Shown here: in pieces, positions 2,701 through 47,065 of the stretch
Layout: each line of letters begins with the position of its first letter
Position numbering within the stretch: the stretch's first letter is position 1
Assembly: GCA_003599595.1 (NCBI GenBank)
Contig: QZIP01000049.1
Coordinates: 1 to 49,367 of the forward strand
Length of the DNA stretch: 49,367 bases
Reading direction: 5' to 3'
DNA from: Candidatus Parcubacteria bacterium
GTDB taxonomy: Bacteria; Patescibacteriota; Microgenomatia; Levybacterales; GWA1-39-11
The notes under the pieces: generated by a model
Told to the model about the DNA's origin: nothing
Databases searched by the model: none
Seen by the model: the letters and a program-made list of their open reading frames with translations, nothing else
Made by a program: the position numbers and the translations under genes

Positions 2701-3204
2701 ATGAACAGTGTAGAACAACTGGTTCAAGACAATTTGGCATTGGCTTATCATGCTAAACTTCAATTATTACCAAAATATAAGGGAATAGATGAAGACATTA
2801 TTGAATCAGATGTTCTATATGGTTTGTTTAAAGCTGCAAAGGCTTTAAATACTTCTCGTGCTAAGCTGACTACGTTAGCGCATTATTGTATAAGAAATCA
2901 AGTTAAAAATTCAGTCAGATATTGGTTGACCCCAACTCGAAATGTTTACAAAACAAGAACAGGTCAGGAAATTGCATTACTTAGACTTTCTGTTAAAAAT
3001 AACCCAGAAGTGTATGATATTTATGAAGACATCAAAAAGTTCTTGACTTGGGAAGAAAGAGTTATATTAAGAACAGTATTTTGGGAAGGGATTTCTCCAG
3101 TTGAGTTTAGTAAGATGCTAGGAAATTATAAAAGTTGGGCTAACCAAAAAATTAGATGCATATCTAAAAAAATTAGAGATTTGAAACAATATGCAACCAA
3201 TTAA
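2701..3204 (+). CDS. sigma-70-like RNA polymerase sigma factor
   Basis: This 167-residue protein has a region-2-like stretch at residues 30-77. It matches the sigma layout of an acidic helix, a GLFKAAKAL-type helix, then LTTLAHYCIRNQVKNSVR, as in the region 2 'LLKAVEKF...FSTYAxWWIRQA' pattern. The C-terminal part (about 115-162) resembles region 4, a helix-turn-helix with a WEERVILRTVFWEG start. It is small, like phage and ECF-type sigmas. A 65-base spacer precedes it, so it may be transcribed separately. The likely role is directing host RNA polymerase to phage promoters. Confidence 0.72.
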   Translation: MNSVEQLVQDNLALAYHAKLQLLPKYKGIDEDIIESDVLYGLFKAAKALNTSRAKLTTLAHYCIRNQVKNSVRYWLTPTRNVYKTRTGQEIALLRLSVKNNPEVYDIYEDIKKFLTWEERVILRTVFWEGISPVEFSKMLGNYKSWANQKIRCISKKIRDLKQYATN

Positions 3205-9902: not shown

Positions 9903-10194
9903 TTGTACATGTCCTTATAGTGGGCCTGTCCGTACTGGGGACCACTATGCATGTCCATTTCATAAAACTTATGATGCTATAATTAATGGTCAACATGTAA
10001 AAGTACTGCCATATGCTCAGACGGTTGAATCTGAAATGACTAGGATGAAACAGTTATTGGCTAAATGTCTATGGGAGTTACGTCAGCATAATGCTGAATA
10101 TGCTCACATCACCAAGGAGGATTTCCTACGTGAATTAGAGCAATATTGCACCGATGCTGACAAAGATAAAAGCCAAGAACTTCCAAAGCCTTGA
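9889..10194 (+). CDS. small zinc-binding protein
   Basis: The start is ATG 9889, with AGGAGA six bases upstream; an in-frame ATG at 9883 is also possible. The 102-residue product begins MRHPNCTCPYSGP and continues GDHYACPFHK, placing Cys and His residues (C6, C8, C24, H27) as a likely zinc site. A helical C-terminal half follows. It overlaps the Rad50-like N-lobe gene by 41 bases, so the two are probably translated together. Confidence 0.6.
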   Translation: MRHPNCTCPYSGPVRTGDHYACPFHKTYDAIINGQHVKVLPYAQTVESEMTRMKQLLAKCLWELRQHNAEYAHITKEDFLRELEQYCTDADKDKSQELPKP

Positions 10195-11068
10195 AGAAAT
10201 AGAAGTTGATCTAAATCATCCAGTTACAGTATTTTGTGGAAAAACAGGTTCAGGTAAAAGTAGCTTGTTACGAGCTCTTAGATGGATTGTTTTAAATCTG
10301 CAACCACAAAAAGTAAACTTTGTTAAACGTGGTAAAAAAACATTTGCTGTTGAGTTAGAAGTTGATGGAAATCTAATCAATAGAACCAAACCAGATAATG
10401 TGTATAGATTAAATGGATCTGAATACAAAGCGTTTGGTACTAAAATTCCAGAAGATATTGATAAGATACTAAATGTTGACAAACTCAACTTTTCTCATCA
10501 ATTAGATGGTCCTTTTTGGTTTGATTTGAGTCCTGGTCAAGTAAGCAAAGAACTTAATTCAATCATAAATTTGGAAGTGATAGATTCCTCGTTATCTAAA
10601 GCTAAATCGTCTATCACTTCTTCTAAAAAAGAATCTGAGGTATGTCAAAATAGATTGAAGGAAGCCAAGGCTAAAAAAAAGAGTCTGTTATGGGTGAAAG
10701 AACTCAATATTGATTTGAAAAAGTTAGAGGAGATGAAAAGTGAAATTATGGAACTTAGTGTACAAGCCTCTAGGATATCTGAATTAATAAAAGCCGGGGC
10801 TAACGCCGCTATTAAAGTTCAGACGCTTTCGCAAGCCTTCCTAGACTGCGAGGAAGCCCTCTCAAAATACCCCTTAGACCTAATTAATAAGGTTAAGAAG
10901 CTTCAATCATTATTACAAGAGTCTGAAGCAGCTAAAAAGAGGTTAGATGAGGCTGAAAAATCTGAAAAGGAAGCCCAATCTAAACTAGATGAAATTAAAG
11001 GTGTATCATGTCCAACTTGTGGAAAAGAGATGAATTCTGATGAATACGACAATCACGAAGAAGAATAA
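10154..11068 (+). CDS. SMC/Rad50-like ATPase, N-terminal lobe (split gene)
   Basis: This 304-residue protein is the N-terminal half of an SMC/Rad50/SbcC-type ATPase. It starts with the characteristic MLTKIKAKNFQSLEEIEVDL strand pattern and a Walker A GKTGSGKSS at residues 29-37. A coiled coil runs over about residues 145-280, and a zinc-hook-like CPTC lies at 286-289, 15 residues from the end. Signature motif and Walker B are absent. They are supplied by a separate gene at 13634-14236. In normal Rad50/SbcC/gp46 the chain continues through the hook into the second lobe; here it stops. The complex would act with the Mre11-like nuclease encoded between the halves, in DNA end processing. Confidence 0.87.
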   Translation: MLTKIKAKNFQSLEEIEVDLNHPVTVFCGKTGSGKSSLLRALRWIVLNLQPQKVNFVKRGKKTFAVELEVDGNLINRTKPDNVYRLNGSEYKAFGTKIPEDIDKILNVDKLNFSHQLDGPFWFDLSPGQVSKELNSIINLEVIDSSLSKAKSSITSSKKESEVCQNRLKEAKAKKKSLLWVKELNIDLKKLEEMKSEIMELSVQASRISELIKAGANAAIKVQTLSQAFLDCEEALSKYPLDLINKVKKLQSLLQESEAAKKRLDEAEKSEKEAQSKLDEIKGVSCPTCGKEMNSDEYDNHEEE

Positions 11069-11348: not shown

Positions 11349-11460
11349 TGATCTTTTTACGGCCATAGCTTATTTATTAGCTGTTGCTATTTTCTTATTT
11401 GTAATGTTTTTCATAGTAGTTCCGTCATTGACTACTGGTCTTATGCCACTTGTTAGATAA
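11326..11460 (+). CDS. one-span membrane microprotein
   Basis: A 44-residue frame from ATG 11326 to TAA 11458-11460. Polar N-terminus (NNENQNND), then a continuous hydrophobic segment (about residues 10-33). The stop overlaps the start of the nuclease gene (TAATG). Unrecognised. Confidence 0.5.
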   Translation: MNNENQNNDLFTAIAYLLAVAIFLFVMFFIVVPSLTTGLMPLVR

Positions 11461-12752
11461 TGTCAAAACTTAAAATTTTTGTATTTGGTAGTAATCGGGA
11501 AGGAAGGCACGGTAAAGGTGCAGCACTTACAGCACGAAACCATCATGGAGCTATTTATGGTCAAGCAGAAGGAATCCAGGGAAATTCTTATGCAATTATT
11601 ACAAAAGAACTTAGAAAAGAATTTCCTCCAATTACATTGGAAGAAGTTAAACGTGGAGTGGATTCCTTCCTGGATTTCGCCAGGATACGACAAGACTGCG
11701 ATTTTGAAGTCTCTCCAATAGGATGCGGGTTAGCTGGTTTTATTCCAGAGCAGATAGCTCCTTTATTTGTCAAAAAAACTCCAAACGTACATCTTCCTCC
11801 AGAGTTTACTAAAATCATAAATGATGATCCAATTATTGCTATTACCACAAATGATTGGCATTTATGGCCTACTCCTCCTAGATTCAGAAGTTCAGAAAAA
11901 GACTGGCTTAATGTAATGGCCGGTTATCTTGAACAAATTACAAATCTACTTCCTTCAGCACCTTCTGGAGTTCCAGTTGTAATGGCTGGGGATATGTTTG
12001 ATAGATTTGATCCACCTGCTTCTTTTATTTCATGGTGTATGGATCACATACCAGAATGTTATGTTGTGGCTGGACAGCATGATCTTCCATATCATAGATT
12101 AGAAGACATTGATAAATCTGCGTTAGGAGTTATGATTAAGTTGGGGAGATGTAAGTTACTTAGTTCAAGATCACCTCAACCAGTTTACCATAATAACTTG
12201 GTTCTACATGGTTTTTCATGGAATCAAGAAGTTAGACCATTAAAAAGAGAAGATAATGATAAGAGAATTCATTTGGCTGTTATACATGCATATATTTGGA
12301 CAAAAAATACCTGTTATCCAGGAGCGTCGGAAGAGAGTCGGCTGGCAGCGTGGCAGAAGAAGTTAAAAGGTTATGATGCAGCTGTGTTTGGTGATAATCA
12401 CAAATCGTTTTTCATAACCAAAAAGGGACCATGTCCCATTTTAAATACTGGAAGTTTTATGGTCCGTAAATCAGACGAACGCGGACATAAACCATCAGTA
12501 GGTATTCTTCATGAAAGCGGTAAGTTGACACGTCATTATTTAGATATCTCAAAAGACAATTATTTTGATCCTTTAGAAGGAATGGAAAGTACACTTAGAG
12601 GTGAATCAGATGAATATGCTAGAGAAGCAATTGCTGAATTAGAAGCTTTAGGTGATCTAGGTCTTGACTTCAAATCATCTGTAAACCAATGGGCAGAAGT
12701 TCATAAAGTAAGAGATTCTGTTAGAAAGTTGTTGTTGGAGATGATGGAATGA
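11460..12752 (+). CDS. macro-like domain fused to Mre11/SbcD-like nuclease
   Basis: This 430-residue protein has two parts. Residues 1-120 (KIFVFGSNREGRHGKGAA... GNSYAI... SPIGCGLAGF) resemble the small 'phage-type A1S_2505-like' macro-fold domain. Residues about 124-400 are a calcineurin-type metallophosphatase. The metal-binding residues are D132/H134 (NDWHL), GDMFD at 177-181, GQHD at 205-208, the HAY His276, and GDNH at 311-314 in place of the usual GHxH. This is the nuclease partner of SMC/Rad50-like proteins, and its gene lies between the two halves of that ATPase. The order of domains and the single frame are directly visible. What the macro-like part binds is unknown; ADP-ribose or another nucleotide is possible from the fold. 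Confidence 0.83.
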   Translation: MSKLKIFVFGSNREGRHGKGAALTARNHHGAIYGQAEGIQGNSYAIITKELRKEFPPITLEEVKRGVDSFLDFARIRQDCDFEVSPIGCGLAGFIPEQIAPLFVKKTPNVHLPPEFTKIINDDPIIAITTNDWHLWPTPPRFRSSEKDWLNVMAGYLEQITNLLPSAPSGVPVVMAGDMFDRFDPPASFISWCMDHIPECYVVAGQHDLPYHRLEDIDKSALGVMIKLGRCKLLSSRSPQPVYHNNLVLHGFSWNQEVRPLKREDNDKRIHLAVIHAYIWTKNTCYPGASEESRLAAWQKKLKGYDAAVFGDNHKSFFITKKGPCPILNTGSFMVRKSDERGHKPSVGILHESGKLTRHYLDISKDNYFDPLEGMESTLRGESDEYAREAIAELEALGDLGLDFKSSVNQWAEVHKVRDSVRKLLLEMME

Positions 12753-13633: not shown

Positions 13634-14236
13634 ATGTTGGATCTTTCCCAAATACGTCAGAAAACGAACAAATTACTTCATGAACGTGAATTTGCAGCCA
13701 AGCAAGTAGAACTAGAAAAAGCAGCTTTAGAAAAGATTGAAAACAAACTGAAGGATCTCACAGAAGTTCAAGAGATTCTTCAACTTCACGCAGAAGCTGT
13801 TCAGAATAGAGCACAAAAACAAATCTCTTCAATTGCTACTCAAAGTCTTAAACATGTATATGGACCAAATGTAGAATTTAGAATTGAATTCAAGCGTTCT
13901 AAAGGTAAAACAGAAGCAGAATTGAAATTCATAAAAGATGGTCAAGAGTTTGATCCCAAAGAAGAAACAGGTGGTGGAGAATTAGATGTAGCTTCTTTGG
14001 CTCTTAGAATGTCTTGTTTGATGTTATCCAGACCAAGACTTCGTAGATTAATAGTTGCTGATGAGCCGTTTAGAAATATCAATGGTGAAGAATATCAACA
14101 AAGAGCTGGAAATTTAATTCAGCTCCTTGCTGAAGAAATGAAAGTACAATTTGTTGTTGTTTCGGACGACGAATGGCTTAAAGTGGGTAATGTAATTGAT
14201 ATGTCAACATTGAAGAATAAGAAATTACATCAGTAG
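13634..14236 (+). CDS. SMC/Rad50-like ATPase, C-terminal lobe (split gene)
   Basis: This 200-residue protein is the C-terminal half of an SMC/Rad50-like ATPase. Residues 1-65 are coiled coil. The head follows, with the ABC-type signature region ETGGGELDVASLALR (about 111-125), Walker B RRLIVADEP (137-145), and a D-loop-like FRNIN. No Walker A is present; it is on the N-lobe protein encoded at 10154. The two lobes must associate to form the ATPase sites. The last codons overlap the convergent release-factor gene by 12 bases. Confidence 0.87.
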   Translation: MLDLSQIRQKTNKLLHEREFAAKQVELEKAALEKIENKLKDLTEVQEILQLHAEAVQNRAQKQISSIATQSLKHVYGPNVEFRIEFKRSKGKTEAELKFIKDGQEFDPKEETGGGELDVASLALRMSCLMLSRPRLRRLIVADEPFRNINGEEYQQRAGNLIQLLAEEMKVQFVVVSDDEWLKVGNVIDMSTLKNKKLHQ

Positions 14237-15006
14237 ATCAAATTGACCTTTTTCAATAATTTTATCCACATTATTAACTTTCTTCCCTGTTCTATGATCT
14301 ACACATCTTGATTCCATATAATTATACGTCCTGATTTTATCACCTCTCCCACCATCTCCTAACTGCTGTTTTCTTATATCTTTATATGATGAAAACTTCT
14401 GATTGTTAGTCAATTCAGTTATTTTAGCAGATAATACCCTTCTAGCTTCTTTTCTATTCTTTCCTTGATCCCTTCCATTAATAAACACGGATAAACCAGT
14501 TGGTTTGTGTTTCAATCGAACTGCACTAGCTACCTTATTAACATTTTGTCCACCTGCGCCTTGTTTTCCAGTTTGAAATGATTCTTCTAAATCTTTTTCT
14601 TGTAAATTAATTTTAGAATTCTGTGGTGGAAGTGGAAGTACAGCAACAGAAATCATAGAAGTTTGTTTTCTTCCATTATGTTCTGTAGGTGGTATTCTTT
14701 GTACACAGTGTTTACCAGATTCCATACGGAATAATTTACCAGCATTACTACCAGTAAACTTGGCTACTATGTGTCCAGGATCATTATCTAATAATTCAGA
14801 TTTTAAACCATTACGAATAGCATATTTGACATATGCATCATAAAGGTTTTCTACAAACAGCTTACTATCGGTTCCACCAACACCGAATTGAATTTCAACA
14901 ACTATTTCTGAGGAAAGGTCAAAGCCAGTCCTTACCTCCAGAGCTATTATTAGCTAGTTGTTGAGAGGAGCTAAAGACACCCCCATGGTTGATTTGAATT
15001 ATTCAT
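14225..15006 (-). CDS. RF1-like peptide chain release factor, two programmed +1 frameshifts proposed
   Basis: This is a class I release factor, which cuts the finished peptide from tRNA at stop codons. The continuous open part (14225-14725 from its only ATG) holds the GGQ motif (GAGGQNVN) and the codon-recognition loop RIPPTEH, an RF1-type PxT rather than the RF2-type SPF. Homology to the PCRF domain continues well upstream (VEIQFGVGGTDSKLFVENLY), but this frame has no ATG, GTG or TTG before TAG. The good start is ATG at 15006, with AAAGG seven bases upstream. From it, eleven codons reach CTT-TAG-C. A +1 shift gives 17 more codons to CTT-TGA-C. A second +1 shift enters the PCRF frame. The product is 259 residues and lacks the usual N-terminal domain 1 of about 100 residues. 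Confidence 0.8.
14919..14940 (-). promoter_or_regulatory. proposed +1 frameshift site 2 of the release factor (UGA)
   Basis: The bases CTT-TGA-C (CTT at 14922-14924, TGA at 14919-14921) are identical to the prfB shift core. Upstream lie two Shine-Dalgarno-like blocks, GGAGGT (14934-14939) and TAAGGA ending four bases before CTT. The spacing is slightly looser than in prfB. A +1 shift gives Leu-Asp, then LSSEIVVEI, which leads directly into the conserved PCRF domain. Confidence 0.65.
14971..14984 (-). promoter_or_regulatory. proposed +1 frameshift site 1 of the release factor (UAG)
   Basis: Read on the minus strand, GGGGGT ends two bases before CTT-TAG-C. This is the same geometry as the bacterial prfB site (AGGGGGT-AT-CTT-TGA-C), but the slow stop is TAG. 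The shift moves Leu-tRNA from CTT to TTT, so the next codon read is AGC. TAG at 14971-14973 is codon 12 of the frame starting at 15006. RF1 reads UAG, and this gene encodes an RF1-like protein, so low RF1 activity would favour the shift. Confidence 0.7.
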
Positions 15007-15056
15007 TGTGGAACCTTTCTAAACAAATTGAAAATAATTAACCGGCCCTAAACCCT

Positions 15057-20221: not shown

Positions 20222-21319
20222 TTAAAGCTCCGCTGAGGCTGTATATTGAAATCGCATGCCGGTCTTGCTCGTAGCGGCGTCACTTGTCATCAAGAAGCCG
20301 GTGTTGCCCTGACTGCTGACGGTGCCGGTGCGATTGTTGCCAACGGCGTAGTAGAAAACCTTGCTGGCGTTACCGCTCATATCCCAATAACTGATTGTCG
20401 GCGTCGTGCGCATGGCCGACTGCCAATTAACATGCACCACGGTCGCCGCAGTGCTTGCACCAGAAATAGCCACGCCCGCTGAGCCGACGACGGTTGCAGT
20501 CGCAGGTACAGTCTCAGTCTCGTAACTCTTCCGGTAGTACCTCTGGCACATCGCCAGTTCTGTCTCAAAGTCCCGTATCTCGAAATCCGTCGCCGTGTCG
20601 CCGACTTCAAGCTGAACTTGGCTGAGGTAGAAGTCGTTGCTGGTGGAGTCCATGCCGTTGACTTGGTTAGCAGTTGCTTCATAATTACCCGTTTGCCAAG
20701 CGTCTGCGGTGGTATGATAATTAGAGCCGGCTGCTATAACAAATAGCAGTTGGACACCGACACCATTGGTATAATCCCATGTCCCGGCTGACGGCGAAGC
20801 TGGAAATGTTACAGTTTTCCTTTCCCATGTATCAGATGTGGAAATGGTGTATTCAATAACACAAGACCTGTCTGCACCGCCGTTACGAAGTGCAACACAA
20901 AACGTGCCGGTCTTAGTTGACCTTACCCAAAACGAAACCGTAACAGATTTTTGAGCAAAGTTTTTCCAGTTATACCCCTCAACTATTTGATATATATGGT
21001 AAACATCACTAGCTCCAATACTCGCATCTATTGTGGTGCAATCCACCTTGAAAGAGTAGTTTGACAGCTTTCCTGACTGAGCCACCGTTGGAATTGTGGT
21101 GCTTCTACTAACAGTTGCCACGCCTACACCAACAGACCCATATACCCATCTATCGGCCATGTAGCCGCCAGCCGCTGCAAAGCTCGTCCCCCGCTGCCAA
21201 ATGTCAAAGTCGCCGTTGATGATGGTGTTCTTCATCCCACCAGCATAAATGGAAAGAAGACCTTCAGGGTACCTATTTCTTTCTTGAGCCAATGTTTCAG
21301 GTCGCCAAGTTCTAATCAT
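20222..21319 (-). CDS. tail fibre protein with carbohydrate-binding-like domain, foreign composition
   Basis: The start is ATG 21319, overlapping the stop of the upstream fibre gene by eight bases. The track's 21337 start would reach further into that gene. The 365-residue product opens with about 25 linker residues. A domain beginning NTIINGDFDIWQRGTSF and MADRWVYG follows, the well-known start of a phage and bacterial carbohydrate-binding-type fibre domain. The sequence ends in SFWVRSTKTG, FYLSQVQLEVG and MRFQYTASAEL-type strands. The codons between about 20222 and 20660 are GC-rich, unlike the neighbours, a sign of transfer. Likely receptor-binding part of the adhesin. Confidence 0.75.
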   Translation of the reverse strand: MIRTWRPETLAQERNRYPEGLLSIYAGGMKNTIINGDFDIWQRGTSFAAAGGYMADRWVYGSVGVGVATVSRSTTIPTVAQSGKLSNYSFKVDCTTIDASIGASDVYHIYQIVEGYNWKNFAQKSVTVSFWVRSTKTGTFCVALRNGGADRSCVIEYTISTSDTWERKTVTFPASPSAGTWDYTNGVGVQLLFVIAAGSNYHTTADAWQTGNYEATANQVNGMDSTSNDFYLSQVQLEVGDTATDFEIRDFETELAMCQRYYRKSYETETVPATATVVGSAGVAISGASTAATVVHVNWQSAMRTTPTISYWDMSGNASKVFYYAVGNNRTGTVSSQGNTGFLMTSDAATSKTGMRFQYTASAEL

Positions 21320-24300
21320 TGTAAAGTCCAATCTCACTCATATGCACTACAGCTCCACTAGCTATTGGACCATTAGCCCAAATCGCGGGGACCAAACAAA
21401 CTCCACCACTTAATGATTGTAAAACTACACTAAACACATTCCAAGTACCACCTAATTGACAAGTGACAGCAGGACCAAGTAAAGCAACTCCGGAACCCCA
21501 AGTTGGATCAGTACCACTAGTACCAACTGCAAATCCACTAACAAAAGAATTAGGAACAAAATCAAAATTAGCAACCGAAACACCACTAACAGGAGCACCA
21601 ACTCCACTGGTCGTTTGTAAGATACCCATTCTCATAATCAAACCAGATAAAGCAGCAGTTGTCTTCAATTGAGCCTGGAACGTTAACATTGCTCGATTCA
21701 ATGCTTGGGTATCAGTACAACTCAAGTTCTGATAAACTGCAAACTTGTGACCGCTCTGCGTTATTTGAAATTGACCATAGTATCTATTAGACAAACCACT
21801 AGTGAAACCAGATTGCATTTGATCCCACTGTTGATACATCACCATACTAAATCCAGAAGCAGGAGCTCCCGAAGACCAAGCAACATAAAAACTATCTGGT
21901 CCTACAACATCCGTTCCAGTTCCATGCACTCCAGAAAAACTCAAAACATTGTTGACCAATGGACCATACATACTTTGGGTCCACAAACCACCATTAGTCA
22001 ACCAATTATACTCGCTTCCTGAGTTTATAACTCCAGAAGCCAAGTGCATCTGACCAATTTGACCACTTGCTACACTGCCTGAGACTACAACTCCACTGGC
22101 AAGACTTGGATTAGGATAAGTCCCAGTTAAAGCCCCACCAGCAGTTCCAGCTAATTGAGTATTAGTTGCTCCTTCAGCAGATAGCGTATACCAACCATCA
22201 TCATAATACATTCCTTGACTTGGAGTTAACAACGACTTGGCTTCAGTTCGTAAACTACCTCCAGCATTAGTTTGAACTGTAACCCCAGCAGTTGCAGTAT
22301 CAATATTGAAAACTGATATATGACTTACGTCAACTGCATATCCTGAAGCTGGAGCAGAAATCATAGTAACAGCGGCAGTACCACTAACTAAACCGTTATT
22401 TGCTCCTGGTTGACTGGTTAGATCGGTATTGTTGACGGTGGTATAACCAACATTCCAAGTCAATCCACTAGTAGTAATAGCCCCACTGAGTACAACCTCT
22501 AGTGCTATACCACTGGTTAGAATAATGCCGCGTTTGCGTTGACGAGCAGCTATTCCACCCCAAGCAGTTCCTAGATGTTCCCCAGCAACTTGACCGGAAG
22601 CTATGGAACCAGATACAACCGCTCCATTACCAATCAATCCGGAGGTGATGATACCGCTGGTTAATGCGAAGGAACCTGAGGTGTTTGTAACCGTATAGGT
22701 GTTCGTAGTTGTGACTGCAACAGATATACCAGCTCCAGCAGCGACAACAAAAGCCCCAGATGCAAGATGACCGCTGTTGACTGCGCCACTAGCTAGATGC
22801 ATCCGACCAATGGCACCGGAAGCTACATATCCACTTACTATACTCCCAGAAGGAAGGAGAATGGTGCCAGATATAGCTGTTAAGGAATTGGATGTTCCAA
22901 TGAAGATTCTTCCATATACAGTGCCGACATATACATCACCATTGCCGGCACCGCTTGCTCCAACACCCCCATCAAGGTAAAGATTACCACCAGAACCACC
23001 GACATTTCCTGCATTAGCAAGACCTCCTGGTCCACCATAGATGTAAGTATTGCCACCTGTTGCACCTCTGTTCTGACCGGAACTAGCTGAAGTTCCTCCT
23101 TGTCCGGCTTGTACTGTCAACGTACCACCGTCGCCTGCCAACATTCCAGTACCAGAAGTAGCGGTACCTCCAGTGCCAGCAGTTATTTGAATTAAGCCAC
23201 CAAGTCCAGCGGAACCACTTAGGGATGCAGATCCACCTAACGAGGCTCCAATAACAAGACTAGGAGCAGTAGTATTGACTGCTACTCCAGCTTGCGCCCC
23301 ACCTATTCTGATTGTAGTCGGCGTAACTAAGCCAATGTTCAACGCACCGAACATCCCAGCATCAACATACAATGTACCGGAATTGACATCGGTTGAGATA
23401 TTGATGTTAGTACCATCATCCGATATCAAACTAGTACCAAGAAGTCTTGAAGCTATCCACTTTGTTAGATAACCACTAGTTCCAGTACCAGATAAAAGAA
23501 TAACACCAGAAGCTAGATGCATTCCTCCTATAGAACCACTACTAATATTTCCACTGTTTACAGCATTATTACCAATTAGTCCTGATACTATAATACCTGA
23601 AGTTAATGAACTGCCAGCACCAGACAAGTTAGTAAGTAATATACCACTAAGACCAGGTGTAACAGATATCCCTGGACCAGGTAGTAATGTGCCTGATTGA
23701 ATATGGACAGCAGCAATTTGACCGCTACCAATATTACCGGATAGAACAGCATTATTAGCAATTTCGCCAGATTGAATTAACCCAGAAGCAATTCTCCAAA
23801 AATAAACTGTATCAACACCGGAACGACCAACAAATACTGAATTATCAACACCAGCATCTATAGCTCCAGCACCAATAATTGTTCTATAGGTACCACCACC
23901 ACTGTTAAGAAAGGTAGTGTCCGCACCAATTAAAGTATTTGAATCCCCGTAAGTAACTCCTGCACCACCGACATCATCTCCTGCACCATATCCAATAAAC
24001 GTATTTTTACTACCGCTACTTAATATTGCTCCAGTGTTTGCTCCAAGTGCTGTATTTCCACTAGCCGTATTTACAACATTGACTAAAGATTGAACGCCTA
24101 CAGCTACATTTTCGCTACCATTAGTCAAATTTTTAAGTGCAAAATATCCTACTGCGGTATTATCATTTCCACGAGTATTAAGTTGTAACGCATCATAACC
24201 AACAGCAGTATTATCTATACCAGATATATTATCTGTTAATGCTGCGTCGCCAACAGCAGTGTTGTAATCAGCTAAATTATCAGCTAGGGCGTAAGCTCCT

Positions 24301-24815
24301 ACTGCTGTGTTGTAGCTTCCCGAAATTACGTTCTTAAGAGCATGAAATCCAAACGCAGTGTTTTCTGTAAAGGAAGTAGAAAATCCAGAACTTAAAGCAT
24401 TCACACCTGCTCTGGTATTTTCTTCAAATGGAATAGATACTAATTGAAAACCGGATGCTATGTGGTTTGGGGAAACTGCCCCTGAACTAATGTTTCCAGA
24501 ATTTACAGCATTATTGCCAATTAACCCAGAAACTATGATTCCAGAGGTAAGAGCAGTAGCAGCTCCTGATGTATTTGTAATGGTTAATATGTTTGGCGCA
24601 GTTGCTGCAATATTAACACCAGGACCAGCTGCAACTTGGAACGCACCTGAAGCCATTACTCCAGATACAATAATACCAGAAGCTAGATGGAATCTACCTA
24701 TTTGACCAGATGCTATGTAACCACTGGTCAATCCACCTGATTGAATTCTAAACACAACTCCTGTTGGAGTTGGAAGCCCATCAATTCCAGATGATCCAAT
24801 TACAATCGTATTCAA
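21312..24815 (-). CDS. giant modular tail fibre with YadA-head-like and Ser-Gly repeats
   Basis: This 1167-residue protein begins at TTG 24815, preceded by TAGGTAAG and an in-frame TAA, so TTG is the only start. Residues 30-125 are Ser-Gly repeats (SGLIGNNAVNSGNISSG). About 130-345 are YadA-head-like repeats (YNTAVGAYAL, IDNTAVGYDAL, NTALGANTG), known from trimeric adhesins. About 530-645 are glycine-rich. Further Ser-Gly repeats, a module shared with the fibre at 18796, and a carbohydrate-binding-like C-terminal domain (NWLTNGGLWTQ, HMSEIGLYND) follow. The whole is probably a long trimeric fibre. Confidence 0.78.
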   Translation of the reverse strand: MNTIVIGSSGIDGLPTPTGVVFRIQSGGLTSGYIASGQIGRFHLASGIIVSGVMASGAFQVAAGPGVNIAATAPNILTITNTSGAATALTSGIIVSGLIGNNAVNSGNISSGAVSPNHIASGFQLVSIPFEENTRAGVNALSSGFSTSFTENTAFGFHALKNVISGSYNTAVGAYALADNLADYNTAVGDAALTDNISGIDNTAVGYDALQLNTRGNDNTAVGYFALKNLTNGSENVAVGVQSLVNVVNTASGNTALGANTGAILSSGSKNTFIGYGAGDDVGGAGVTYGDSNTLIGADTTFLNSGGGTYRTIIGAGAIDAGVDNSVFVGRSGVDTVYFWRIASGLIQSGEIANNAVLSGNIGSGQIAAVHIQSGTLLPGPGISVTPGLSGILLTNLSGAGSSLTSGIIVSGLIGNNAVNSGNISSGSIGGMHLASGVILLSGTGTSGYLTKWIASRLLGTSLISDDGTNINISTDVNSGTLYVDAGMFGALNIGLVTPTTIRIGGAQAGVAVNTTAPSLVIGASLGGSASLSGSAGLGGLIQITAGTGGTATSGTGMLAGDGGTLTVQAGQGGTSASSGQNRGATGGNTYIYGGPGGLANAGNVGGSGGNLYLDGGVGASGAGNGDVYVGTVYGRIFIGTSNSLTAISGTILLPSGSIVSGYVASGAIGRMHLASGAVNSGHLASGAFVVAAGAGISVAVTTTNTYTVTNTSGSFALTSGIITSGLIGNGAVVSGSIASGQVAGEHLGTAWGGIAARQRKRGIILTSGIALEVVLSGAITTSGLTWNVGYTTVNNTDLTSQPGANNGLVSGTAAVTMISAPASGYAVDVSHISVFNIDTATAGVTVQTNAGGSLRTEAKSLLTPSQGMYYDDGWYTLSAEGATNTQLAGTAGGALTGTYPNPSLASGVVVSGSVASGQIGQMHLASGVINSGSEYNWLTNGGLWTQSMYGPLVNNVLSFSGVHGTGTDVVGPDSFYVAWSSGAPASGFSMVMYQQWDQMQSGFTSGLSNRYYGQFQITQSGHKFAVYQNLSCTDTQALNRAMLTFQAQLKTTAALSGLIMRMGILQTTSGVGAPVSGVSVANFDFVPNSFVSGFAVGTSGTDPTWGSGVALLGPAVTCQLGGTWNVFSVVLQSLSGGVCLVPAIWANGPIASGAVVHMSEIGLYND

Positions 24816-24846
24816 TTACTTACCTAAAAATACAGTATAAACATTA

Positions 24847-24875
24847 ATTATACATAAAAATCACTGCTACACCAA
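24847..24875 (-). promoter_or_regulatory. candidate promoter upstream of the giant fibre gene
   Basis: On the minus strand TTGGTG (24870-24875) and a perfect TATAAT (24847-24852) are separated by exactly 17 bases. The -10 box lies about 32 bases upstream of the TTG start of the fibre gene. The -35 matches the consensus only partly. The 51-base gap in an otherwise tightly packed cluster also suggests a new transcript. Confidence 0.42.
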
Positions 24876-27779
24876 AATCAAACCACCACTGTTATAGGGG
24901 TATCCAATTGTTTGAAGTGTATCACCAAGAATAAATCCACCTGAATTCCAAGAACCTGAAGTTGGAACTAAATGCCCACTTCTGCCTACATATATAGTTT
25001 GTCCTAGTGCTCCTGTGAAATCAGTGAGACCAGAAGCAAATTGGAATTTACCAAATGAATAGAAATTACCTGTCGCTCCACTAGCCACATTATCAATTAA
25101 AATACCTACTGCTGGCATTCTTCCACTTACAGAAGCCATGGCTATTCTTAAATAACCAGATTGAGATATTTGAACAGCTCTAACTCCTGAAATATCTTCT
25201 TCAGTCACTAATGGAATTGCAATTGAACCACTAGTATTAGAAATCAGTATTCCAGATAATCCAGGAGTAATACTTATACCTGGACCTGGTAATAAAGTAC
25301 CTGATTGAATGTGAACAGCAGCTATCTGTCCAGAACCAATGTTACCAGATAAAACACCACCATTGGCGATATGCATCTGGCCAATTTGACCTGATGATAT
25401 GTTTCCACTATTTACAGCATTGTTACCAATTAGTCCTGATACTATAATACCGCTAGTTAATGCAAACGAACCAGAAGCATTTGTTATTGTAAATGCGTTA
25501 GGAGTCGTAGCAGCTACTGTGATTCCTGTACCTGCTAAAATAGTAAATGCGCCAGAAGACATCACACCTGAAACAACTATTCCAGATGATAAATGAAATC
25601 TACCAATAGCTCCTGATGCGATATTTCCTGAATTAACAGCATTATTACCAATTAATCCACTTACGATAATTCCAGATGTTAGCGCAAACGAGCCAGACAG
25701 GTTAGCAACAGTCAAAACATTAGGAGCAGTAGCTGTTACTGAAATACCTACTCCTGCTGCTACCTGAAAAGCGCCTGAGGATAATACTCCAGATACAACT
25801 ATTCCACTAGATAAGTGGAATCTTCCAACAACTCCACTAGCTATGTTTCCAGATTGTACTTGATTGAATAAAAGCGGGTCTTCGACGTTAAGATTAATTT
25901 GGCCACTATTTATACCTACTGAACCAAGAGGCTGTACAGCATCTCCTGCAACCAAACCACCTGAGTTAAACCCACCGCTGTCTGTTACAACATGTCCTGA
26001 ACGTCCCAGAACTAACTGACGACCTAGATAACCCGAAAAGTCAACAATCCCTGAAGCTGCTGCCAGAGGAATTTGAACGGTTCCAATACCATAAACAGGA
26101 GCTCTCAAGCCAGAAGCAACGTTATCAATTACTATTCCCAGTGCTGGCCAACGCCCACTCACAGAAGCCATTGCAATTCTTAAATATCCAGACTGTGATA
26201 TTTGAACTGCTCTAATACCGGATATTGGTTCTTCAGTAACAGCAGTGTACATCTCACCACTATTACTATAGAACAACAACCCCATACTTTGTGGGGCTGT
26301 TGAACCTGAACTATGATGATATGTTTGTATCTGACCAGAGGCTATGTGAGGGGAACCAACAGTGCCAGATGCAATACTGCCAGAAACAACAGCTCCATTA
26401 CCCACATGCCCAGAAGTAACACTTCCTGAAGCGTGATGGAATTGTCCAATTGCCCCACTAGAAACATTTCCACTATTTACAGCATTATTGCCAATCAGAC
26501 CAGATACTATAATGCCAGAAGTTAAAGCGAACGAGCCAGATGCGTTAGTTATTGTAAAAGCATTAGGCGTGGTAGCAGCAACTGTTATGCCAGCACCAGC
26601 AATTAATGTATAAGCACCAGATGCTAGAACACCGGATACAATTATTCCAGAAGAGAAATGAAATCTACCAATTTGTCCTGATGCAATACCACCAGAAACA
26701 ACTGCGCTATCACCAATCAATCCAGATGTTATAATTCCACTGGTTAAAGCAAATGAACCAGAAAGATTAGTGATTAGTATTCCACTGAGTCCAGGTGTAA
26801 CAGAAATACCTGGTCCTGGCAATAATGTGCCAGATTGAATGTGAACTGCTGCAACTTGTCCTGAACCTAAGTTACCACTTAGCACTGAACTGTTGGCTAG
26901 GTGTTGAGATGCAATCTGACCACTAGCAATACTACCACTTACTACTGAGTTGTTACCAAGATATCCAGATGTGACTTGACCAGAGGTTAGTACTGCACTT
27001 CCACCACTAGCGGAAATTGTAATTCCAGATAATCCAAAAGCTACTGATACCCCTGTGCCTGGAAGAATAATTCCAGACTGAAGATGAACTGCTGCTATTT
27101 GACCAGAACCAATATTACCACTCAGAACAGCATTATCACCTATATACCCACTTGTGATGATACCAGACGTTAGAGCAAATGCTGCTCCTTGGCCAATAAT
27201 AACAGCTTTATATCCACTGCCATCTGAGTAGATAATACTAGCTTGATCAGTTGATAGTGTTAGTGGGTTTGTTCCATTTATGGTTGATCCACTTGTAGCT
27301 GTGATTGATAAACCACTTGCACCATAATTAGCAACTACAGTCCACCAATGTGGACTAAATAATGAAGTATCCCCTAGTGTTGCTCCTGGTAACACACCAG
27401 AAACAGCACCACTTCCATAAAAGGAAACTAAAGCTGCTCTATCAACTTGATTAAATGTATATGAATTATTACCTGACTGGTCATTGACACCGCCAGTAAG
27501 GTTAAAAGAAGCTTGAGGAGTTAAATTTGGATTTACTTCAGCCCAATCATTATGGGCCATTTGTTCAGTATTTTCAGCTCCTCTTTCCAGTATATTAAAT
27601 ACTGGACCAGAACCGCCCTGCAATAAAAATAACTCTTGATCACAAAATGCTCTAAATTGGCCTGATAAATTTGTTGGCCAATTTAGATAACCGGAACGAA
27701 GGCATAAAACGGAAGCTCCAGATGTGATAGATCCACTTAGTGAACCATAACTAGCAAGATTTGCGATTTCCGCTGTCAT
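24867..27779 (-). CDS. modular Ser-Gly-repeat tail fibre protein
   Basis: This 970-residue protein has an N-terminal domain of about 200 residues (MTAEIANLASYGSLSGSIT... NPNLTPQASFNLTGGVND) that looks like the attachment end. It is followed by many repeats of the form LTSGII-SG-IG-NAV-SG-I-SGQI and HLASG. Two copies of the SGVRAVQISQSGYLRIAMAS-type module are present, at about residues 515-630 and 860-965. The repeats predict an elongated β-structured, probably trimeric shaft. Homologous parts occur in three other fibre genes here. Confidence 0.75.
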   Translation of the reverse strand: MTAEIANLASYGSLSGSITSGASVLCLRSGYLNWPTNLSGQFRAFCDQELFLLQGGSGPVFNILERGAENTEQMAHNDWAEVNPNLTPQASFNLTGGVNDQSGNNSYTFNQVDRAALVSFYGSGAVSGVLPGATLGDTSLFSPHWWTVVANYGASGLSITATSGSTINGTNPLTLSTDQASIIYSDGSGYKAVIIGQGAAFALTSGIITSGYIGDNAVLSGNIGSGQIAAVHLQSGIILPGTGVSVAFGLSGITISASGGSAVLTSGQVTSGYLGNNSVVSGSIASGQIASQHLANSSVLSGNLGSGQVAAVHIQSGTLLPGPGISVTPGLSGILITNLSGSFALTSGIITSGLIGDSAVVSGGIASGQIGRFHFSSGIIVSGVLASGAYTLIAGAGITVAATTPNAFTITNASGSFALTSGIIVSGLIGNNAVNSGNVSSGAIGQFHHASGSVTSGHVGNGAVVSGSIASGTVGSPHIASGQIQTYHHSSGSTAPQSMGLLFYSNSGEMYTAVTEEPISGIRAVQISQSGYLRIAMASVSGRWPALGIVIDNVASGLRAPVYGIGTVQIPLAAASGIVDFSGYLGRQLVLGRSGHVVTDSGGFNSGGLVAGDAVQPLGSVGINSGQINLNVEDPLLFNQVQSGNIASGVVGRFHLSSGIVVSGVLSSGAFQVAAGVGISVTATAPNVLTVANLSGSFALTSGIIVSGLIGNNAVNSGNIASGAIGRFHLSSGIVVSGVMSSGAFTILAGTGITVAATTPNAFTITNASGSFALTSGIIVSGLIGNNAVNSGNISSGQIGQMHIANGGVLSGNIGSGQIAAVHIQSGTLLPGPGISITPGLSGILISNTSGSIAIPLVTEEDISGVRAVQISQSGYLRIAMASVSGRMPAVGILIDNVASGATGNFYSFGKFQFASGLTDFTGALGQTIYVGRSGHLVPTSGSWNSGGFILGDTLQTIGYPYNSGGLILV

Positions 27780-33091: not shown

Positions 33092-36000
33092 TTATGTTCT
33101 TTGTAAAACAAAACCAATATGAAAACCTGAAGATTGAATTACGCCACTAGTCCAAGTAGCCCTAGTGCTGGCTATTGCTATATATTTACCACCAGATAAC
33201 ACCGTTAATTTATTTGCTGTTCCTGTAGATATAGCATTAGTATCTTTATTCCAAACAATAGTTCCTAATGTTACAGCTACCCCAGATACACCAGCTGTTA
33301 CAGTTTGTGATGAGTTATATAGTTTTGCACCAACATCTATTATACCTGCTCCAGTCGGTCCTGTAGGGCCGGTTGGCCCGGTAGGACCAGTCGGTCCTGT
33401 TGGTCCAGTCGGTCCTGTGGGTCCAGTAGGGCCAGTCGGTCCTGTGGGTCCAGTTGGACCAGTAGCCCCAGTTGGTCCGGTCGGACCAGTCGGTCCAGTA
33501 GGACCACCTGGTCCCATACTAGGAGTACTACCAGCTGGTGTATACGCGCTATCCGATGTTTTTCCAACTTCTTTCCATTTATCTCCATCGTACTTGAGTA
33601 TGATAGTTTCTTTAGGTTGAATATTTCTAGGTTTATCACCAGGACTTTGAAATTGATTAGTAGAAACACTATCTGAATTTCTGGAAAGTAAAGTGGCAGT
33701 ATTAGGTGCTGCGCCTGGTTGTGGCCCTTCAGCATTATTCATCAACTTGAAAGTGCGTCCCTTTGTGTTAAATCCTACTGATTCCAAAAATCCTGTAATA
33801 ATTACTGGACCTGTCAGATTAAACGCCTGAAGATCTGCACCAGTTATTGGATAATCATTTAATTGTTGTGGTGATGGGGATTGTGTTTTTACGGTCTCAA
33901 CACCTGTACAACAAGTGTAATCCAAGTTACAACAAAATTCTGAATTCAAATCTGCAAATATAGACGATCCATCACCATTACTACCACCAGTATTTGTTGT
34001 AATATCACAACAAACATCAGTGTCAAGCTCTGCAAATATAGTGCTTTTAGTAAAAGTGTTGCCATTATCATAAGAATTTACAGCATATACTGAAGCAATA
34101 TATCCAGAAACAGAACCTAATGAAACTAATTGACCATCGTATCTAATCCCAGAACTTATTAAATTATCATTACGTTCTACTAACCAAACATATTCAATAA
34201 TTGGAAATTTATTTTCTGCGCCAGCTGCTCTTGGATCATAAAGAGTAACGCCACCAGACCAAAGAGTTCTTCCACCAATTTCTAAACCACTATTTGCTAA
34301 ACAGATAACAGTTTGAGTTTGTGGTACTACAACAACGCCTTGTACACCACCAGATTGCCATACTTCTGGTTGTACAAATTGTCCTTTGTCAAACCGTACT
34401 CTATTCACTCCATATGTATGATCTGGAGTTACGTGTTCTATAAAACTTCCACTAACATGAGAATTTATGTTTGTTCCATCAATTCCACGATAAACAACTG
34501 TCCAAACGTTAGTTCCACTAGTGCCGTTTACATATACAAATTCTTGATCTTGTTGCCCACTACTGATAACTCCGCGCCATCTATATCCAACTGGAAAATA
34601 ATCAGCATTATCAACAATTAATTGGTGCTCACCACTATTGAATGGTTGAGCTAATCGAGCATAAGGAGTTCCATATAAAGGCGAACCACTGTATGTATCC
34701 GACCAAGATTGAGCTACTGACGGACCTCCAACACCTTTAGGAACAATACAGCCACTTAATCCAGGTCCAGCATGTTGATACTCTGTAATTCGTGGATTCC
34801 ATTCGGTACATATAACACGAGTACGAGCAAACCTAGACCTTTCAGAATAAGTCCAAATAATATCATGAAGACCTTCTGGAGTCCAGTTATATATACCTGG
34901 ATAAACTTCATCTAATGCATAAGATGTTTGTAGATTATATCTATCTTGTGCAATTCGTAATGCTAGAGCTTCCAATCCTGAAGTGTTTACAGGAACCATT
35001 CCACTGGCAGCTGTTCCATCAGAAGTGTAAAGAGCTTTAGCTGTTGTTTGTAAATATAATTCTGATATACCAACCAAGCCAGAAGATACTGAACCACCAA
35101 ATATATATCCACTGGCTGTTTTTGTAGTAACAGCTCCATTTTCTACAGCACTATATGAACTACCAGATAATATTTGTCCAGAAGTGATTGTTCCAGACTG
35201 AATACTAATTCTGATAGACCAAACATCTCCATAGCTTTCTTCATACCAAGCTGATGGTCTTTGATTCTGATATCTTGGATTTACAAAGTGTGGAACAGGG
35301 TCGTTTTCATATACATATTTAGGGAAAGTAACAACAATATCTTTAGGAACTACAGCATTAGCAGCAGGATTTAAATTACCAACTGGAAGTTGAGCATCTC
35401 CAGGATAAAATATATCACCACCAGCCACTCTATTAAGTGGGACAATATTCTCTCGATTTCCTATTGCTGTATCTGTAGATTCAGCAGGTGATTCTAACTT
35501 ATATGTTCCATCCATATTTCTTACAACTATTACACCTAAGTTGTAAGCAATTGCATCTAATAGTAATGGAGCAGACTCTACGTTAGTCCAGAGTTGAGAA
35601 TCAGGTTGAGGTTGACCATAAACGGCATCTATCGTAGGTATTGTGAGAGAGATCCCTAGAGCGTCTGCAAGGTCGTTTAAAAGATCTTCCCAAGTTGTAT
35701 CTTGATGAACGTGAAGAGTTGTAGTTTTGCCTTGCCAGTAATATCTTTCATCAACTAATGTTACAAGGTATAACCCATCAAACTTTCCAGCAAGTTCCCC
35801 AATAGGTCTTGCTGGTAACATATGCATATTAGTAGTAACTGTGTATTCATCATTTTTGGTCCCTCCAATAGGGACTTGTTTCATAATGAATTCACCAACC
35901 ATTGATGGTTGAACAGCTTCTAACATGGCTTTCACCATGCTTGAAGTTGCTAACATTCTAAAAACCGACCAACGATTAGCGTTAAATGGATAGTACCAAT

Positions 36001-36268
36001 CCCCAATACCGCATTTAGAGCTGGGCTGAGGATCTGGATTTACAAAACTGGCTAATGCGCCAGTATTTCTACCAGGGTATCCTGGCATGGTGAAATCTTG
36101 AAGATACTCCATTGGGAGTAATCTATTGATTTCATCTATTAAATCTGCGAGGGGTTGTTGGTCGCGAGGGGGGAGAAAGTTTTGGTCTTTATATTTTTCA
36201 TTTGTGGCTGGAGCCATACGGACAAGTGTTCCCTTGTCCGTAACAAACGGAATTCCAGCATATGTCAA
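33092..36268 (-). CDS. large tail/baseplate protein with collagen-like C-terminus
   Basis: This 1058-residue protein's first 750 or so residues are tail/hub-like domains with β-strands and Ser-Gly elements ([15 protein letters not shown]). It then has a Cys-rich part with paired repeats ([22 protein letters not shown]). A Gly-Pro-Thr collagen-like tract (about 915-980) and a C-terminal β-domain of C1q/TNF type ([17 protein letters not shown]... [10 protein letters not shown]) follow. The listed start is TTG 36268 with no ribosome site. The frame stays open 18 codons further upstream with protein-like sequence ([10 protein letters not shown]) and no standard start there, so the true start is unsure. 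Confidence 0.72.
33348..33516 (-). repeat. collagen-coding nine-base repeat tract
   Basis: Near-perfect 9-base tandem units encode Gly-Pro-Thr triplets within the large tail protein. Third-position variation (ACC, ACT, ACA; GGT, GGC, GGA) breaks the nucleotide repeat while the amino-acid repeat is kept. Confidence 0.8.
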
Positions 36269-45616: not shown

Positions 45617-47065
45617 TTAGATTGTTGGGTCCAAATTGTCCATCCAAACGAAGGCACTTTCGTGACGAGCCTGGATGTCAGCGGAAAGAATACCACGAAC
45701 CCAAGTTTGATCATTAGCGAAACTGGTATCGCCCTGAGTTGTTGCAGCAAACTCAATTGCTCCGAACATACCGATCAAAAGATCGCTCCACATACCACCT
45801 ACAATGTAGGTAAGGTTAGAGGAAGAACCCTTGGTACGAGCTTGAGAAACCTGAGTTGACTTGACAACTGGGTAACCTGCCAAAGTAGCAGGAGTATCTG
45901 CACCAGCTTCACGAATCAAATTGAATACAAATGGTCCCTGGTTATCACCCTGAGCAACAGCATCTGCACGTAACTGATACCACTTATACAGAGACTTTGG
46001 TCTCATGATAAAGCATTCAAACTCAGCATTAGCTTCTTCAACTGCGCTTACAAAACGATAAATATCTCTTGCGGAGAATGCATCACCGTTTGGACGTGGA
46101 TCAGAGCTAGTGAGCTTGATGATATCCTTGAAGTTAATAACACCACGAGGTTGGGTATCAGTACCGGTTCCCTGAAGACCAGCCAAGTCCAAACCAAGAG
46201 CCAAACTCTTAGTCATATCATCACGAAGCAATGCTTCGGCAGCTGGAGAAGCAAAACGAATTAATTCGTTAGGAGCCTTGATCAGAACAGCTAATTTCTT
46301 AGCCTGGAGAGTTACCTCACCAGTTCCAACCAAGGATTCTGTAATAGGAGCATTTTCACCAACCCAGTAGGTGGTGCTGGCAGATGTCTGACGTGGGAAC
46401 TTCATACGACCCTGTGGGGGAAGTGGAACTACCCGAGCGCCAGCATTTACCAATGCTTCTTTGTTACGCAAAAGTTCAATCAACTCACCCATCTCTGGAG
46501 GAGCTACGATAGCGCCACCAGTGAGTTCGTTCAACCAAGACAGAGCCTTGGAATCATAACCCAGAGACTTTAGATGCTGGGTACGCATCCACTTCATTTC
46601 GCCGTGATCAGCCTTATCTACACCAGCGCAGACCAAGCTTTTCATTTCCCGACGAAAATCTACTGGTACAAAAGCATCCATTAAATAGGAGGTACCAAGT
46701 GGGGAAAGGAAACGATTTCCTAACCCTGCATAATCATAAGCCTGATTGCCAGCATCGCGGCTTAGAGTATTATGAAGACGTTCAGCTACCTGAAGTTCAA
46801 CCTTGGCCTGTTCAGGTTTGATTTGATTGCTAACCACACCCAACATCTTGAGGAAGCTATATCCTCTAGAAGTTAGTGGATCCTCACCAATACGAGCATT
46901 GGGGAGACCAAACACCTGGGACGCATTAGGAGAACCAGGGGCTGGGGTTTTCTTTAACTGCTCAATCAAGCCACTAAAAGACTTGGTCAAACCGTTAATC
47001 TGATCATCAGTTTTGCGAGCCATATCTTGTAGACTCTTTACTTCGGATTCTAACGTAGCACTCAT
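45617..47065 (-). CDS. major capsid protein, HK97 fold
   Basis: This 482-residue protein begins with a helical, coiled-coil N-terminus (about residues 1-45, EVKSLQDMARKTDDQINGLTK-like) matching the HK97-type delta domain that is often removed by protease during head maturation. Typical phage_capsid features follow: RVVPLPPQGRMKFPRQTSASTTYWVGENAPITES, KKLAVLIKAPNELI, and RDDMTKSLALGLDLAGLQGTGTDTQPRGV (about 280-308). The C-terminal P/A domains end in HESAFVWMDNLDPTI. The gene has a clear TAGGAG ribosome site. Confidence 0.92.
   Translation of the reverse strand: MSATLESEVKSLQDMARKTDDQINGLTKSFSGLIEQLKKTPAPGSPNASQVFGLPNARIGEDPLTSRGYSFLKMLGVVSNQIKPEQAKVELQVAERLHNTLSRDAGNQAYDYAGLGNRFLSPLGTSYLMDAFVPVDFRREMKSLVCAGVDKADHGEMKWMRTQHLKSLGYDSKALSWLNELTGGAIVAPPEMGELIELLRNKEALVNAGARVVPLPPQGRMKFPRQTSASTTYWVGENAPITESLVGTGEVTLQAKKLAVLIKAPNELIRFASPAAEALLRDDMTKSLALGLDLAGLQGTGTDTQPRGVINFKDIIKLTSSDPRPNGDAFSARDIYRFVSAVEEANAEFECFIMRPKSLYKWYQLRADAVAQGDNQGPFVFNLIREAGADTPATLAGYPVVKSTQVSQARTKGSSSNLTYIVGGMWSDLLIGMFGAIEFAATTQGDTSFANDQTWVRGILSADIQARHESAFVWMDNLDPTI

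Follow-up and report, generated by a model that had tools for sequence, protein, structure and literature searches.

The Phage Contig and Its Release Factor Gene

The stretch of DNA analyzed in this study, hereafter the window, is QZIP01000049.1, which is 49,367 bases long and an entire contig of a 1.4-Mb metagenomic bin with 52 contigs. The contig is that of a tailed phage: a 482-residue ORF at positions 45617–47065 matches phage major capsid proteins, and long tail-fibre-like ORFs are also present. The tail-fibre-like ORFs at 21312–27779 and 33092–36268 on the minus strand are highly repetitive, containing both SGxIxSGxIG repeats and a GPTGPT tract that resembles collagen. On the plus strand, 10154–11068, 11460–12752, and 13634–14236 hold an apparent split SbcC-type ATPase, whose N- and C-terminal halves flank a phosphoesterase-like ORF with a macro-like N-terminal part. 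The genes of the window phage end in TAA, TAG, and TGA, all three being used, and no tRNA genes were found in the 49,367-base window. The same bin also contains ordinary RF1 (C5) and RF2 (C45, SPF motif) genes, and no CTT-stop site was seen at the start of its RF2 gene.

The minus strand of the window contains a release-factor frame of 231 codons, DLSSEIVVEIQFGVGG...FDLLM*, at 14225–14920. Its translation matches the Pfam domains PCRF (E = 1.3e-21) and RF-1 (E = 4.2e-23), and contains the PxT motif of stop recognition as PPT (14692–14684) as well as the GGQ motif of class I release factors in the RF-1 domain (14554–14546). The NCBIfam profiles gave 208 bits for RF1 vs. 153 bits for RF2, and the RF2 motif SPF was absent, so that the protein does not belong to the prfB (RF2) family. 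The best PHROG match was phrog_19918. Domain 1 is absent, as the match begins at about residue 85–110 of RF1 and the NCBIfam RF1 profiles align from about residue 104; only 28 residues of the product precede the RF1-matching part and these are not conserved. Peptide chain release factor H (prfH) is also a class I factor without domain 1. Membership in prfH was rejected, however, as the score of 51 bits fell short of the cut-off (166.65) and was far below that of the RF1 match. The AlphaFold model of the release-factor frame had a pLDDT of 88.5, and its best Foldseek match in the PDB was RF1 of Thermus thermophilus on the ribosome (TMq 0.85). The phage gene thus encodes an RF1-like release factor of class I that lacks domain 1 and has a confidently predicted RF1 fold.

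The PPT motif suggests recognition of UAA and UAG. The specificity is left uncertain by the usual HTS motif, which is QTS here, and by the altered tip of the decoding helix, which reads DSK. In the relatives identified, the PxT motif was mostly PPT, with PHT, PPS, PPN, PHL, PDN, PSN, or PKN in some. A link between the type of stop codon and the PxT motif was sought among these relatives and not seen.

Two Probable Frameshift Sites in Series

On the upstream side, a TAG at 14956 closes the release-factor frame, which contains no ATG, GTG, or TTG ahead of the PCRF domain. Farther upstream, an ATG at 15004–15006 is preceded at a distance of 7 bases by the Shine-Dalgarno (SD)-like AAAGG (15014–15018), and an ATG with an SD before it was found in the same relative place in all relatives with two sites. 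It opens a leader ORF in frame 0, MNNSNQPWGCL, which runs at leader codons 11–12 into the first site, CTT TAG C (14970–14976). The SD-like GGGGG at 14980–14984 is followed by TGT and CTT, which is the spacing of prfB, and its pairing energy with the anti-SD was −9.3 kcal/mol vs. a background median of −1.6. The homologous sites of the relatives are CTT-TAA, CTT-TAG, or CTT-TGA. A +1 shift at this site leads into a middle ORF of 17 codons, SSSQQLANNSSGGKDWL (14922–14972); the corresponding ORFs of the relatives are always open, ranging from 11 to 23 codons. The second site, CTT TGA C (14918–14924), is preceded by the SD-like bases GGAGGTAAGGA (14929–14939) and then CTGG, with an anti-SD pairing energy of −5.8 kcal/mol in the nearest 11-nt window. 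A second +1 shift enters the release-factor frame at GAC 14920. Both sites therefore have the elements of a prfB-type site, which are a CTT (or YTT) codon, an in-frame stop, a following C, the remainder of the gene in the +1 frame, and an SD-like sequence immediately upstream.

These positions agree base for base with a sequence-only reading of the window, which had described two tandem prfB-like sites, SD-like bases before both of them, and exact prfB geometry at the first. A hairpin around the sites was too weak for a claim (fold z-score of −2.2, with 6 of 200 shuffles equally good), and a promoter scan revealed no excess.

Relatives With Two Sites

A DNA-level search of the phage collection and a single-protein scan of viral contigs returned nothing, and the first scan of genome contigs found no relatives. 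The second scan of genome contigs returned mainly prfA genes of bacteria, with L026 as the single true member. Relatives were recovered in IMG/VR with a two-sequence alignment and later fragment alignments as queries, and their genes were scanned for up to two CTT-stop sites per gene. When the protein was aligned to homologous phage release factors, as the sequence-only reading had proposed, the two-site layout was found in seven further distinct genes, which are only distantly related.

The eight distinct tandem genes are those of the window, of LR756511.1, and of six IMG/VR phages. LR756511.1, a 595-kb uncultured phage whose release factor is 56% identical to that of the window, is the closest relative in the annotated collection. 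Its leader MKKKVKNQVCL is followed by CTT-TAA-C, 15 codons, CTT-TGA-C, and the release-factor frame. Among the IMG/VR genes, only L009/L010 have the stop pair of the window, UAG and then UGA. The pair is UAA and UAG in L011, UGA and UGA in L013 and L192, and UAG and UAG in L020 and L221. The distance between the two CTT codons equals 1 modulo 3 in all eight genes, as is required for two +1 shifts. The first sites of all eight had anti-SD pairing energies of −5.4 to −10.4 kcal/mol. The SD-like sequences of the second sites were weak in four of the eight (about 0 to −2.5 kcal/mol) and strong in some others.

Chance is a poor explanation of this layout. When the 120 upstream bases were shuffled with their dinucleotides preserved, the frame could be reached from an ATG with an SD by way of tandem CTT-stop sites once in 60,000 shuffles, and by way of a single such site 105 times. 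Tandem entry was found for 8 and single entry for 27 of the 121 release-factor open frames of the fetched phage loci and the window, compared with 0 and 2, respectively, of the 1029 other open frames in the same sequences. Moreover, dN was far below dS in the release-factor frame downstream of the stops, indicating strong purifying selection. The sequence-only reading had considered chance or sequencing error unlikely, which is upheld by the shuffles, the control frames, the independent assemblies, and the purifying selection, and its central claim of two tandem sites in one release factor gene is strongly supported by the recurrence and this selection. Comparison among these sequences establishes both sites with their frames and recurrence, the selection on the product frame, and the predicted release-factor fold.

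Relatives With One Site or an In-Frame UGA

More than 20 further relatives have one CTT-stop site, at which the stop is UGA, UAG, or UAA. The release-factor cores of L014 and L015 are identical at 229 of 230 residues and their leaders have diverged; CTGTCTTTARC is retained despite this divergence, with UAA in one gene and UAG in the other. In addition, a separate lineage of short phage release factors (L136, L130, L148, L158, L170, L168, L150, and L285) has one CTT-stop +1 site per gene, which lies within the PCRF domain near codon 34. The stop of these sites is also UGA, UAG, or UAA, and most are preceded by GGAGGGG-like SD bases. A different observation concerns L138, a long RF2-like phage factor with an SRF motif, which has a candidate CTT-TAG-C near codon 23, the position of the site in prfB.

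In a sister group of short phage release factors, 43 distinct genes (L271, L272, L279, L240, L232, and 38 other loci) contain a UGA in frame near codon 33, which is approximately the position of the single CTT-stop shift in the L136 lineage. The stop is always UGA, is preceded by GGC or GGT in 42 of the 43, and is followed by A in 33. Nearly all of these genes start directly at an ATG. The bacterial RF1 residue aligned with this UGA is Trp. In five phage records of the group, which were sampled at greater length, TGA serves as an ordinary stop and no tRNA with a UCA anticodon was found. The in-frame UGA is thus a candidate for programmed readthrough of a release factor, and its occurrence in sister lineages at the shift position of other relatives suggests that the lock on the gene was kept through another recoding route. 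Within the main clade, L018 and L021 have an in-frame UGA-A in place of the shift site, just before position 3001 (CAG TGA AGA; AGT TGA AGA), and the phage of L018 has a tRNA with a CUA anticodon.

Proposed Mechanism

We consider it highly probable that synthesis of the full-length release factor requires two successive prfB-type +1 frameshifts, which would act as two slow-termination gates in series. At each CUU-stop-C, the leucyl-tRNA in the P-site of a ribosome awaiting a release factor would slip from CUU to UUU. Prompt termination would instead release a short peptide, of 11 residues at the first site or 28 at the second. With two gates in series, the yield would be approximately the product of both slip rates, and the factor would be made mainly under slow termination, when release factors are few or occupied during infection. 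Compared with one site, two sites would give a steeper response and a lower leak. In a simple competition model, which serves as illustration only and sets slippage to one half when release-factor activity is normal, passage at a tenfold excess of release factor was 9% via one gate and 0.8% via two, and at a tenfold shortage 91 and 83%, respectively. The occurrence and regulation of slippage, its kinetics, and the stops read by the phage factor are parts of the mechanism that we infer, regulation by analogy with prfB; efficient constitutive slippage would leave identical DNA.

Negative feedback by the encoded factor is a further element to be considered. UAG fits feedback by an RF1-like factor and UGA does not. 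If the factor reads only UAA and UAG, as PPT suggests, the UGA site would not be self-regulated and the UGA gates would sense the host RF2. Each of 12 related phage records contained one release factor gene only.

In the copy of the window, whose gates are UAG and UGA, RF1- and RF2-type termination would both have to be slow. The equal stops of other tandem genes point to a more general function, namely the sensing of termination rate with little leak and a steep response. As the number of gates and their stops vary across the family, the shared principle is probably a stop-codon lock on the phage release factor rather than a fixed AND gate for RF1 and RF2. We give about even chances to the broader proposal that a "stop-lock" on the release factors of phages is general and has been maintained by convergence. 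In this proposal, tandem +1 sites, a single +1 site at any stop, and conserved UGA readthrough in the same place are interchangeable means of restricting synthesis of the factor to stalled termination, and the tandem form is a steep two-input sensor of termination rate.

Alternative Explanations

A second site might also have arisen and persisted as a neutral ratchet, with efficient slippage at both sites and without useful control. In L020, the two cassettes are near-identical and 34 bases apart, with 13 of 16 upstream bases alike. Because duplication of a cassette of 3n + 1 bases keeps the frame, L020 points to a simple route to tandem sites. Parsimony on the clade tree also requires at least seven changes of site number, a rough minimum as some inner branches are weak. 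However, most other tandem genes, including that of the window, show no clear likeness between their own two sites, the tandem sites persist over deep splits, and a second slip always costs yield. A neutral origin and persistence of this kind therefore appears fairly unlikely.

Selection of the pair of UAG and UGA in order to restrict synthesis of the factor to low activities of both RF1 and RF2, the strict logical AND of the sequence-only reading, is unlikely. It fits the UAG and then UGA of the window, the same pair in L009/L010, and the UAA/UGA of LR756511, and its logic follows from the simple competition model. The pair is not conserved, however: two tandem relatives have UAG/UAG, two have UGA/UGA, and one has UAA/UAG, and the identity of the last stop changed at least eight times on the same tree, also a rough minimum. 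The switch between UAA and UAG in the near-identical L014 and L015 argues against it as well. What stands of that reading is the probable requirement that two terminations be slow, with stops that differ from gene to gene.

Indels introduced by sequencing or assembly, or the decay of a pseudogene, would be conceivable for a single metagenomic contig whose sites lie within short T runs. This explanation is highly improbable and was rejected, as independent assemblies, including the 595-kb genome, share the layout with different stops and flanks, purifying selection downstream is strong, and no tandem entry occurred in the 1029 control frames. Similarly, a start at the internal ATG 14725, where a 166-codon ORF opens, would yield a GGQ-only, ArfB-like protein; the chance of this is very remote and it was rejected, since no SD precedes this ATG, its Met is replaced by Y, H, N, R, and other residues across the alignment, and the PCRF part upstream of 14725 is conserved and under selection. 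Finally, reassignment of the stops, which is common in huge phages and is hinted at by in-frame stops or a CUA tRNA in the records of some relatives, is next to impossible in the window phage and was rejected by frame logic, as reading UAG and UGA as sense fails to join three frames, and the genes of the window end in all three stops with no tRNA genes present.

Comparison With Known Release Factor Recoding

Similar to bacterial prfB, with its CTT-TGA-C and SD-like AGGGGG, the phage gene combines a slippery codon, a stop in the A-site followed by C, SD spacing, and the +1 direction, all in the early part of a gene for a class I release factor. Different from prfB, which has one site and encodes RF2, it has two sites and encodes an RF1-like factor without domain 1, and UAG is common in its family. 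Among 8,164 genomes, the stop at the prfB shift site was TGA in 98.6% and TAA in 1.4%, with TAG absent throughout, and prfA was without such control (PMC12421855).

Beside single-site bacterial prfB, the closest precedent is the eRF1 of Mimivirus (R726) and Megavirus (mg280), whose expression involves UGA readthrough plus a frameshift at CUU-UAG-C or CUU-UAA-C (PMC3521657). Similar to the phage gene, these are viral class I release factors behind two successive 5′ stops, with CUU-stop-C and a stop swapped between relatives. However, they are of the eukaryotic/archaeal type, are found in amoeba viruses, and combine readthrough with one shift, whereas the phage factor is of the bacterial type, is found in tailed phages, and combines two +1 shifts. 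As regards tandem +1 sites, the statement of the sequence-only reading that no tandem system had been described thus agrees with the open-licence literature searched, with the qualification that the Mimivirus and Megavirus eRF1 also needs two recoding events.

A survey of huge phages lists RF1 and RF2 and makes no mention of frameshifting (PMC7162821). These genes and phrog_19918 belong to the protein family of the window's release factor and likewise come from viruses of this kind, and LR756511 is itself an uncultured huge-phage record; the release factor records of huge phages are unannotated and recoding in them is apparently undescribed. Searches of open-licence papers on tandem release factor frameshifts, phage-encoded release factors, and release factor frameshifting in jumbo phages found nothing relevant. 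Apparently, neither tandem +1 sites nor a UAG shifty stop in a release factor gene of bacteria or phages has been described earlier in this literature. According to a 2016 review (PMC5009743), no bacterial gene for RF2 or RF1 is known to have an early in-frame stop with continuation in the same frame, and UGA readthrough in the sister group, if true, would be of that type. The CTT-TAG-C of L138 has a stop never seen in bacterial prfB (PMC12421855).

Implications

Autoregulation of release factors by frameshifting in bacteria was thought to be confined to RF2, with one site and UGA or rarely UAA. The phage RF1-like family departs from this, as it has two sites in series and uses UAG, UAA, and UGA freely. 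Phage genes of this type escape gene callers or are truncated by them. The family is large enough for the effects of stop identity and gate number to be tested, and its homologous genes with zero, one, and two gates form a natural series in which a steep sensor of termination rate may come ready-made. The proposed locks on these genes are also a clue that phages may watch host termination during infection.
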